Shown here: positions 10,866-13,256 of the stretch, piece after piece
Layout of the letters: each line of letters opens with the position of its first letter
Position numbering within the stretch: position 1 is the stretch's first letter
DNA from: Micromonospora inositola
Lineage (GTDB): Bacteria > Actinomycetota > Actinomycetes > Mycobacteriales > Micromonosporaceae
DNA length: 64,000 bases
Reading direction: 5' to 3'
Assembly (NCBI RefSeq): GCF_900090285.1
Contig: NZ_LT607754.1
Span: forward strand, 6,226,001 to 6,290,000
Notes under the pieces: generated by a model
The model's input: only the letters and a program-made list of their open reading frames with translations
What the model was told of the DNA's origin: nothing
Database searches by the model: none
Made by a program: the position numbers and the translations under genes

Positions 10866-10935
10866 ACGGCGCAGTGTGCCACCGGTCGGACGCGACGCGC
10901 GAGAGCCAGCGGCGGGCCGTACGGTCGGCATACGA

Positions 10936-10970
10936 CGTCGGGCACCGGCTCCAGGAGCCGGTGCCCGACG
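10936..10970 (-). terminator. Strong hairpin after the C39 peptidase gene
   Basis: Arms CGTCGGGCACCGGCTCC and GGAGCCGGTGCCCGACG form a perfect 17-bp stem around a single A. It sits 17 bases beyond the peptidase stop. No U tract follows. It probably separates the peptidase transcript from the hydrolase gene. Confidence 0.65.
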
Positions 10971-10986
10971 GGTGACGCGGAGTGGA

Positions 10987-11808
10987 TCAGGCGGAGTAGC
11001 CGCGGGTGGCCATCCAGTTCGCCAGGTCGATGGTGGTGATCCAGTACTCCGGCAGCGCCGGGTTCGCCGAGTCGGCGATCCGCACGGTCCGGCCGTCGTT
11101 CTTGTAGCCGACCACCGCGATGTAGTGGCCGCCCGGGAAGGAGTGCCAGCCGCCGTCGGTGTCGGTGGCGTCGCCCGCGACGTTGGCGACGACGCCCCGC
11201 CCGTCGGTGATCGCCTTCACGACGTCGGCCTGCAGCTGGTCCATCTGTGCGGGGGTGGCCGCACCCGGGATCATATGCGTCCGGTACGGGTTGCCCTTGA
11301 CCATCTGGTTCAGCCCTCGGGTGGTGTCCTCGGCCGAGTTGGTGCCATTCTCGGTGGTGCCGAGCGGGCCGGCCATCTCGTCCTGGGTCCGCTCGATGCC
11401 GGCCGCGCTCAGCGCGTTCCGCACCGCGGCGGGGCCGCAGTTGTAGAAGTAGAGCTGCGCCTCGTAGTTGTAGTCCAGGACCTTGGTCGACGGCGGCTTC
11501 GGCGCCGCCTTCCGGGTCAGGTCGGGGTTCGGCTTCGCCGAGGTCGTCGACGCCGACGGCTTGGGGCTGGACGACGTCGACGGGGCGGCGGCGATCCGCT
11601 CCTGGCTGCGGGTGGCCACGTCGCCGAGACGCGGGGCCAGCTCAGAGACGGCGGCGGTGGTCTCCTGGCGGACGGGCGCGTCGTCGGTGTTGGCGAGCAG
11701 GGCGCCGGTGCCGGAGGCCAGCACGAGCGCGGCGGCGGAGCCGGCGACGATCTGGTACGGGCGCTCGGTCGCGAGGCGCCGCAACTGCCGCTTCAGGGTG
11801 TGCTTCAC
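10987..11808 (-). CDS. Secreted/membrane-anchored C39-type cysteine peptidase
   Basis: 273 residues from GTG at 11808, with GGAGG seven bases upstream. A cationic N terminus and a hydrophobic segment (residues ~19-38) form a signal or anchor, then comes a Ser/Pro/Lys-rich linker (~75-110), then a papain-like C39-fold domain: FYNCGPAAV with Cys124, GGHYIAVVGY with the histidine, and RIADSAN with the third residue. The domain acts outside the membrane, presumably on peptides or the wall. A ydaO-type c-di-AMP riboswitch lies in its long 5' leader (12040-12155), tying it to wall and turgor control. There is no ABC transporter alongside, so it is not a bacteriocin-processing exporter. Confidence 0.88.
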   Translation of the reverse strand: MKHTLKRQLRRLATERPYQIVAGSAAALVLASGTGALLANTDDAPVRQETTAAVSELAPRLGDVATRSQERIAAAPSTSSSPKPSASTTSAKPNPDLTRKAAPKPPSTKVLDYNYEAQLYFYNCGPAAVRNALSAAGIERTQDEMAGPLGTTENGTNSAEDTTRGLNQMVKGNPYRTHMIPGAATPAQMDQLQADVVKAITDGRGVVANVAGDATDTDGGWHSFPGGHYIAVVGYKNDGRTVRIADSANPALPEYWITTIDLANWMATRGYSA

Positions 11809-12039
11809 GTTGGTCCTCCACGGGGGGCGGGAGCGGCGCACGCCGGACCGACGCGCGGAGGAACTCACGCGCGACGAGGGATCGTGGGCGGTGCGACCGC
11901 GGGAACGGGGGCGCCCGGTCAACCGGGCGGCAGGGCGGATGCCGGAATCAGCGCGCCGGTGAGGCGGGCGACGGCACCGCGGCGCCGTGGAGGCGGGGGG
12001 ACGAACGGGGGATGGGATCTGGCTCCACGAGGATGGGAA
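11809..12039 (-). other. 5' leader between riboswitch and C39 gene (expression platform region)
   Basis: About 230 bases of untranslated leader. It contains a hairpin with arms CGCCCGG/CCGGGCG (11912-11929, four-base loop) and several other GC-rich inverted repeats that could be terminator or anti-terminator folds. I see no convincing open frame here. Confidence 0.45.
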
Positions 12040-12155
12040 CTCCTTCCGACACCGCCTACCGGGTTAGCTGACGGATTCGGGCGGGAAGATCGCCCTACCG
12101 CGGGCCGTGGCTCGCGGATTCACCCCGGACGTGCACTGGGTCCCCGGTTCGTGAC
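12040..12155 (-). ncRNA. c-di-AMP riboswitch (ydaO-yuaA class)
   Basis: Read on the minus strand the element shows, in order, the conserved blocks of the class: GAACCGGGGACCCA, GGGGTGAATCC, GTAGGGCGATCTTCCCGCCC, GAATCCGTCAGCTAACCC and GGTAGGCGGTGTCGGAAGG. These match the actinobacterial form of the ydaO motif as I know it. Binding of cyclic di-AMP normally turns expression off. In actinomycetes such elements often precede wall hydrolases, which fits the downstream secreted C39 peptidase. Ends are approximate. Confidence 0.93.
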
Positions 12156-12219
12156 ATCACGATTGAGCGGGTCGGCGCGGCGTCGCCTCTTGCGATCGGA
12201 AACCGCACCGGACGCGCTG

Positions 12220-12248
12220 ACACTACCGGCGGGTATCCGCCCTGCCAA
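12220..12248 (-). promoter_or_regulatory. Sigma-70-type promoter for the riboswitch-peptidase transcript
   Basis: Minus-strand TTGGCA and TAGTGT are separated by exactly 17 bases. The predicted start near 12213 lies about 55 bases before the first conserved riboswitch block. This is one of the best-matched -35/-10 pairs in the window. Confidence 0.65.
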
Positions 12249-12467
12249 GCGGCCCCACCTGCTTAAACCTCGGTCACCATTACTCTGACCGGAACAGCCC
12301 GTCACTGACGTCACTCAATGGGACATGCAGTTATGACGGAACCATCGGGCGAAATTCGGACATCGGGTGGCGAGTGGCCCGGAAATTGCGGGGGTCGATC
12401 GCCGGAACCGGCCCGGATGACCGTTTCCCGATTCGCGTGACGAGGCTCACCGAATTCAGGTCACAAT

Positions 12468-13256
12468 TCAGCCAACCCGCGCCGGCCGCCAGCGCGCCGG
12501 GCGGGCCGGGGCGGTGGCGACCACCACCGGGGCGAGGGTCTGGGTGACCGCCTCCGCACGGCGTACCGGGACCGGTCCGGGGCGCACCGCCGCCGCGGCG
12601 GCGTACGCCTCCACGGCCAGCGCACGGGCCGCCTCGGCGGCCAGCTCCGCGTCCCGCCAGGCCCGCTGCTCCCGCTCGGCCGCCGTGCGGTAGCCGGCCA
12701 GCCGGCCGTCGCGTACCACCCGGGCCAGGACGATCTCCTGCTCCGCCGGGTGCCGGCGCGGGTCCCACCCGTTGCGGTGCGCGAGGACGTCGGCGAGCTG
12801 CCGCGCCGACAGCTCACCCCGCCAGTGCGCCGCCATCGCGGCGTGGCGCAGCCACCGCTCCCGGGCGGCGTACTCCGCCGGGGTCCGCGGGGTACGCGGC
12901 GCGGGCAGCACGGCGGCGCCGGCGAGCCGACGGGCGACGCTCTCCGCCTCGTCGTACGCCCGCCAGGCCCGGTCGGCCTCGTCCTGGGCCCGCAGCCACT
13001 GCTCCCGCCGTCGACGCGCGGTCTGCGCCGCCCCGGCCGCGGCCACCGCCACCTCGTCGGCGTACCGGCGCAGGTCGGCGAGGCGGGCCGCCTCCTCGGC
13101 GGCCGGGTCGGGGACCGGCTCGGCGTCGGACGGGGTCTCCCGCTCGGGGCGGGCGACCAGCGCGGCGAGCAGGGCCAGGGCGAGCAGGACCAGGGCCGAC
13201 CAGATGGCGGCGGCCTGCGGGACCTCGATCAGGAACTGGTAGAGCACGGTCTGCAT
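12468..13256 (-). CDS. Ala/Arg-rich membrane-anchored protein of unknown function
   Basis: 262 residues from ATG at 13256 with GAGG nine bases upstream. One N-terminal membrane helix (AAIWSALVLLALALLAALV, residues ~16-36) is followed by a long, charged, alanine-rich helical region with many AE/AR repeats (about 60-250), likely coiled coil and cytosolic. No family is recognised. Stretches such as RYADEVAVAAAGAAQTARRRREQW resemble conserved unknown proteins of Micromonosporaceae, but that is an impression only. The open frame continues upstream to 14261, which would delete the hydrophobic start and overlap the next gene. Confidence 0.65.
   Translation of the reverse strand: MQTVLYQFLIEVPQAAAIWSALVLLALALLAALVARPERETPSDAEPVPDPAAEEAARLADLRRYADEVAVAAAGAAQTARRRREQWLRAQDEADRAWRAYDEAESVARRLAGAAVLPAPRTPRTPAEYAARERWLRHAAMAAHWRGELSARQLADVLAHRNGWDPRRHPAEQEIVLARVVRDGRLAGYRTAAEREQRAWRDAELAAEAARALAVEAYAAAAAVRPGPVPVRRAEAVTQTLAPVVVATAPARPARWRPARVG

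Follow-up and report, generated by a model that had tools for sequence, protein, structure and literature searches.

A c-di-AMP riboswitch that may reach a Micromonospora C39 peptidase gene at a distance, through a short translated frame

On the minus strand of the window (the whole 64,000-nucleotide stretch of Micromonospora inositola DNA that we analyzed), a gene at 10987-11808 encodes a 273-residue C39-family cysteine peptidase that matches PF13529 (E = 1.2e-18; 68.5 bits against a cut-off of 24). An original prediction, made from the sequence alone, had placed here a GTG-started gene about 230 bases downstream of a riboswitch, encoding a secreted Cys124/His peptidase. We located the GTG at 11808, 230 nt past the aptamer, and found Cys124 and His228 in the product; together with Gln118 and Asp246, also of catalytic type, these residues are invariant in 27 aligned sequences. 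The papain-like fold and the Gln/Cys/His/Asp set are shared with Peptidase_C39_2 (PF13529) proteins. Read from its sequence, the protein carries an N-terminal hydrophobic segment followed by a Ser/Thr/Pro-rich linker, and its assignment as an exported C39-family protein is supported. Past the gene, a long perfect hairpin without a U-tract (10937-10969, minus strand) is, judging by its sequence, the probable transcript end.

The predicted fold of the C39 protein is papain-like and lies equally near pseudomurein endoisopeptidase, phytochelatin synthase and ComA, with 15-20% identity to PeiR (8z4n, 8z4h), Alr0975 (2bu3) and the ComA peptidase domain (5xe8); a sequence search for relatives of solved structure returned none. 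No Pfam family other than PF13529 scored above cut-off in the 273 residues, and the protein has no ABC-transporter part. The original prediction had regarded a C39 fold outside an ABC transporter as less usual, a point that we do not retain because PF13529 covers a stand-alone protein, the genome encodes five further relatives, and the predicted fold is equally near enzymes other than ComA. None of these five relatives has an aptamer match. Three of them (L188, L190 and L191, at 3.36, 3.97 and 3.91 Mb) lie within mutually similar DNA, with local alignment scores of 830-993 among themselves and 27-43 against the other two, a similarity that suggests recent duplication.

The riboswitch claimed upstream of this gene was checked with the Rfam covariance model. 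RF00379 matches positions 12038-12179 (minus strand) over the full model (1-134) at 87 bits, against a gathering cut-off of 38 (E = 3e-20), and the NC line of the alignment flags two positions as non-standard. This is the sole above-cut-off Rfam match in the 64-kb window and one of six RF00379 matches in the 6.7-Mb genome, which also encodes a diadenylate cyclase domain (PF02457, 100.3 bits). By its match to the model, the element is a c-di-AMP (ydaO/yuaA) aptamer. At its 3′ edge lies a Shine-Dalgarno sequence, SD1 (GGAAGGAG, 12040-12047), that can pair with a CCTCG just before the start of a short frame described below; in the consensus structure this hairpin (columns 23-29/39-43) has 97.3% of its cells paired.

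Upstream of the aptamer, the promoter-like site that had been proposed is present at 12220-12248 (minus strand), with TTGGCA at 12248-12243, a 17-nt spacer and TAGTGT at 12225-12220. An alignment of 62 upstream regions shows it conserved; a generic sigma-70 scan did not accept it. Between this site and the aptamer, positions 12173-12210 can form a hairpin with an 8-bp outer stem, within a conserved part of the upstream alignment. A scripted pattern found a similar fold in six of the seven leaders tried, missing it in L009. The hairpin lies mostly beyond the Rfam match and would fall near the 5′ end of the transcript. Upstream of the promoter, at about 12260-12330 (minus strand), the alignment of 62 regions shows two more conserved blocks, one CCCATTGAGT-like and one GTTTACGCAGGTG-like, that are possible regulator sites.

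The association of aptamer and gene is conserved among relatives. Within the genus we found an ortholog in 36 of 37 genomes searched (the remaining genome, G009, holds only a 51% relative), and the aptamer mark lies upstream of the C39 gene in all 36. It is also present at 61 of 62 named loci, a set that shares organisms with the 37 genomes; the last locus, L174, begins too near a contig end. For other genera of the family, 24 listed matches were fetched with upstream DNA, and RF00379 was found in 20. Of the rest, L099, like L174, has too little upstream contig, while L112, L116 and L122 gave no aptamer match; L123 is, by length and sequence, the same contig as L183. Farther out, C39 relatives were found in two of 24 genomes from other families of the order (E = 5.3e-23 and 7.9e-29) and, at E 1e-15, in two of 296 genomes of a phylum sample, both Micromonospora and one of them the window's own. 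The nearest named relatives by best segment are Micromonospora sicca (90%) and M. veneta (88%), and a protein search returned M. kangleipakensis at 91%.

Between the aptamer and the C39 gene lies a feature that the original prediction overlooked, a 26-codon upstream frame (uORF; 12028-11948, minus strand; VEPDPIPRSSPRLHGAAVPSPASPAR) running from GTG to TGA. In all 64 genus leaders, a start codon follows SD1 at a spacing of 4-11 nt. Sixty-two of these leaders could be parsed for both starts, with GTG as the uORF start in 61 and ATG in one; in the other two (L070 and L078) the parser lost the C39 start, yet the aptamer and the uORF start are present. In a control of shuffled leaders, a start codon fell 4-14 nt past the Shine-Dalgarno sequence in 855 of 3100 cases, and the 62 leaders do not count as 62 independent observations because the species are related. 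In the other genera, 19 of 20 aptamer-bearing C39 leaders have a uORF, starting with GTG, ATG or TTG. The exception, L106, precedes a second C39 copy that starts at the aptamer edge with no uORF, so relayed and direct layouts coexist within one protein family.

The uORFs are 14-47 codons long, with 57 of 62 between 19 and 28. One of them (L071) contains an in-frame run of Gly-Ser codons (GSGSGSGSGS) and is extended to 34 codons. Between uORF stop and C39 gene lie 113-203 nt in 61 of the 62 and 54 nt in the exception, L076; the window's gap is about 140 nt. Reading the C39 gene as a single frame from the aptamer edge was rejected for all 62 of these leaders because a stop closes the uORF first. 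The window's uORF and C39 starts, separated by 220 nt, therefore occupy different frames; the frames happen to agree in 16 of the 62.

Direct starts at other aptamers provide a comparison. At all five other aptamers of the M. inositola genome, the first open reading frame of at least 120 codons opens 20-46 nt after the CAGCTAAC mark, which places it at the aptamer-edge Shine-Dalgarno sequence, and the same spacing was found at all 24 non-C39 aptamer loci of relatives among the best matches listed; at seven loci (L004, L042, L053, L054, L056, L061 and L064) this first long frame is in another frame or starts earlier than the gene. These control loci (L037-L065) comprise 29 fetched among the best aptamer matches listed, five of which are C39 loci, one of them (L050) with a chance frame at 18 nt. 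By comparison, the C39 start lies 235-325 nt downstream of the mark in the 62 leaders. The original claim that the riboswitch controls the peptidase is supported in part: the link between aptamer and gene is conserved, but the aptamer's own ribosome-binding site serves the uORF, and the peptidase is therefore probably controlled indirectly. Of the genome's five other aptamer targets, three are recognizable wall hydrolases, which makes a wall-peptide substrate for the C39 protein as likely as the surface proteolysis originally suggested. Within the c-di-AMP regulon, the exported C39 protein is probably a further hydrolase acting on the envelope or wall.

The uORF contains a sequence complementary to the ribosome-binding site of the C39 gene. 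Codons 12-15 include an anti-SD, CCTCCACGG (11993-11985, minus strand), that is the exact 9-nt complement of SD2, CCGTGGAGG (11823-11815). Allowing G-U pairs, a contiguous complement of at least 9 nt occurs in 55 of the 62 parsed leaders; such a complement is not rare by itself, as shuffled uORFs equaled its length in 502 of 3100 cases and its duplex energy in 489 of 3100. Structure gives the stronger evidence: in an RNAalifold analysis of 52 of the 62 parsed leaders (A1), the consensus placed the anti-SD/SD2 helix unprompted, with 96.6% of its cells paired. Over the five-helix consensus structure, 96.1% of cells are paired versus 43-54% with slid partners, a comparison in which the structure is derived from the same sequences. 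When full leaders were folded individually, the probability of pairing between SD2 and the uORF exceeded 0.5 in 57 of 61 genus leaders; L014, L069 and L121 fell below 0.5 and L036 had no pairing. In a shuffle control on the pairing of codons 7-17 (12 of the 62 leaders, 30 shuffles each), the native pairing was reached by none of 30 shuffles in ten leaders and by two of 30 in L007, and was absent in L036. In L027, L028 and L033, where the bases past CCTCCAC are altered, 10-11 nt pair through an extension on the other side. The Leu codon within the helix is CTC in 49, CTT in three and CTG in none of 52 leaders, all from related species; in the C39 genes, CTG makes up 45% of Leu codons.

Tests that depend on variation were negative for this helix. 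Swapping uORF and SD2 arms among species did not weaken pairing (permutation p = 0.20), a cost-free exchange because both arms are nearly invariant, and no anti-SD/SD2 pair (helix 2) has changed on both sides. Three further helices in the loop have one, two and three pairs changed on both sides. Among these are a GCCCGG hairpin between uORF and gene (11913-11928, minus strand; columns 182-187/195-200, 97.7% of cells paired), with two such pairs, and an inner helix of CGGT at 11899-11896 with GCCG at 11837-11834 (columns 265-268/344-347; positions read by hand), with three of four. Outside the genus, pairing of SD2 with the uORF exceeded 0.5 in only nine of 17 leaders, including L113 at a wrongly placed Shine-Dalgarno sequence, with none of three in group g32 and two of six in g54. 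Within the genus, the uORF codons appear able to mask the C39 start site.

Indirect evidence says that the uORF is translated: its start is kept, its GC content is periodic by codon position, and in two species its start reads in frame into the C39 gene. For the 52 uORFs with an LHG motif, GC content at the three codon positions is 0.75/0.62/0.87, compared with 0.78/0.80/0.78 past the uORF stop and 0.64/0.55/0.97 in the C39 gene. Among 44 nearest-neighbor pairs, 9 of 35 indels in the uORF have a length divisible by three, versus 18 of 171 downstream; among all pairs above 75% identity, which are not independent, the counts are 110 of 229 versus 139 of 1425. The aptamer-uORF-C39 layout, kept across Micromonosporaceae, has collapsed into a fused gene in M. 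sonchi (L161) and M. qiuiae (L168). Both have lost most of the leader between the pairing arms, and the uORF start opens a single C39 frame of 299 and 305 codons, respectively; RF00379 still matches these loci at 88 bits. The two arms in M. qiuiae now form one 8-bp anti-SD/SD hairpin (a fold equaled by 3 of 200 shuffles), and the leftover hairpin in M. sonchi is mismatched and shows no excess of folding over shuffles (39 of 200).

The peptide sequence itself is not clearly conserved. Purifying selection on the uORF peptide is not clear from differences by codon position (0.156/0.215/0.204) or from the synonymous share, which is 0.34 in the uORF frame versus 0.29 and 0.36 in the remaining two. 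Six 29-codon uORFs from other genera likewise differ equally at the three codon positions (0.48/0.47/0.51). The LHG motif is absent from 10 of the 62 uORFs, several through frameshift, and the frame-shifted uORFs persist. A peptide selected for its sequence, such as an arrest peptide, is unsupported given these flat codon-position and synonymous tests and the surviving frameshifts. Selection is thus probably for passage of the ribosome, and the peptide itself probably dispensable.

These data point to a model in which the aptamer acts on the C39 gene via translation of the uORF. At low c-di-AMP, SD1 would be open and ribosomes would traverse the uORF, keeping the anti-SD unpaired and SD2 free, so that the C39 protein would be made. 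With c-di-AMP bound, SD1 would close, the uORF would go untranslated, and the anti-SD would pair with SD2 and mask the C39 start. Control through uORF translation is probable because the aptamer-edge Shine-Dalgarno sequence serves the uORF, whose codons appear able to mask the C39 start. The direction of control is borrowed from published c-di-AMP switches, which are reported as OFF switches (PMC9960051). We give a c-di-AMP OFF switch that reaches the C39 gene by a translated relay an even chance, having slightly lowered its weight in view of the leaders outside the genus, in about half of which the helix does not hold. The full reading, in which a c-di-AMP riboswitch works at a distance, the ligand gates a short uORF whose peptide is irrelevant, and a start about 140 nt downstream is exposed as the ribosome passes, which would be the first system of its kind, falls somewhat short of even.

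The closest known system is the M. tuberculosis pe20 Mbox with rv1805A, in which SD1 at the aptamer edge, a uORF bearing an anti-SD and a second Shine-Dalgarno sequence are reported together with translational OFF control (PMC12810186). The C39 leader resembles it in its aptamer-edge SD1, followed by a suitably spaced start codon, in a uORF anti-SD complementary to the downstream SD2, and in its pyrimidine-rich leader region. The two differ in that the Mbox ligand is Mg2+ and the controlled second frame there is itself a conserved small protein (PMC12810186). Rho termination, which in the C39 leader is hinted at by a bias of C over G, has been shown experimentally in the Mbox system (PMC12810186). 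Two points there speak against the relay reading: knock-out of the uORF1 start in the pe20 Mbox raised expression about 1.3-fold, and the Mbox data are explained there by SD1/anti-SD pairing or by Rho (PMC12810186). The same scheme of riboswitch leader and uORF is reported for the B12 riboswitches of M. tuberculosis metE and ppe2, where translated uORFs alter gene expression and ppe2 requires uORF translation (PMC11260477). Their ligand is B12, and ppe2 has a tight stop/start overlap (PMC11260477), in contrast to the gap in the C39 leaders.

Among c-di-AMP switches, the C. glutamicum nlpC switch is reported as probably translational (PMC9960051), and six ydaO leaders are reported in S. lividans (PMC8079986). 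In both organisms an RF00379 aptamer precedes secreted wall hydrolases, as here, and the available text of these reports describes no uORF relay (PMC9960051, PMC8079986). The literature searched, a body that excludes the original target surveys (Nelson 2013, Block 2010), yielded no case of a uORF under a c-di-AMP riboswitch, and the one paper in it that combines c-di-AMP, riboswitch and C39 is, by its title and the start of its abstract, on another subject. Relays from riboswitch to uORF are therefore already known for Mbox and B12 elements, and c-di-AMP as the ligand is new within that literature.

A different use of the same uORF, which we consider rather unlikely, is a Rho gate: c-di-AMP would stop uORF translation, the bare C-rich leader would load Rho, transcription would end short of the C39 gene, and the anti-SD/SD2 helix would be secondary. 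The leaders are richer in C than in G (means of 0.47 and 0.30; 0.49 and 0.29 in the M. inositola leader), a bias that is milder on the coding strand of the C39 gene (0.40 versus 0.32), and the minus strand has no U-tract terminator between 10900 and 12500. Rho termination in the uORF-bearing riboswitch leaders of M. tuberculosis Mboxes (PMC12810186) is a precedent. However, a Rho gate predicts neither the conserved helix over SD2 nor the missing CTG codon. A Rho step is plausible as an addition to the masking relay, since the leader is C-rich and without a U-tract terminator; the exposed leader may additionally permit Rho termination when the uORF is untranslated.

We regard it as improbable that the uORF is a remnant or by-product, left from an aptamer that once served another gene, with the C39 gene driven unlinked from its own site. 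The unclear purifying selection on the peptide and the LHG motifs lost by frameshift fit this explanation. It is opposed by the start codon kept in 64 of 64 leaders, by the uORF in nearly all aptamer-bearing leaders of other genera, and by multiple-of-three indels, which are commoner inside the uORF than after it.

We give very little weight to a three-way switch without translation, in which the empty aptamer would let SD1 pair with the anti-SD and thereby free SD2, as in the published model for the pe20 Mbox (PMC12810186). By inspection, the GGAG of SD1 can pair with the CUCC of the anti-SD, but over about 4-5 pairs versus nine with SD2, and consensus folding favors SD2. This switch also leaves the kept start codon at SD1 unexplained. 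Finally, an intrinsic terminator of the Bacillus type, in which a ydaO switch has a terminator hairpin and U-tract between aptamer and gene, was rejected, as no such site lies on the minus strand at 10900-12500 and the GCCCGG hairpin has no U-tract.

If the relay through the uORF is real, the ligands known to gate uORFs would come to include a second messenger that reflects wall and osmotic state, and riboswitch-uORF relays would extend beyond mycobacteria. Within one genome and one aptamer class, five direct starts stand against one relayed start, a clean contrast that lets one ask whether a relay adds delay, a threshold or a dependence on translational state. The locus also carries a caution for annotation, in that pairing a riboswitch match with the nearest annotated gene can overlook a translated frame between them.
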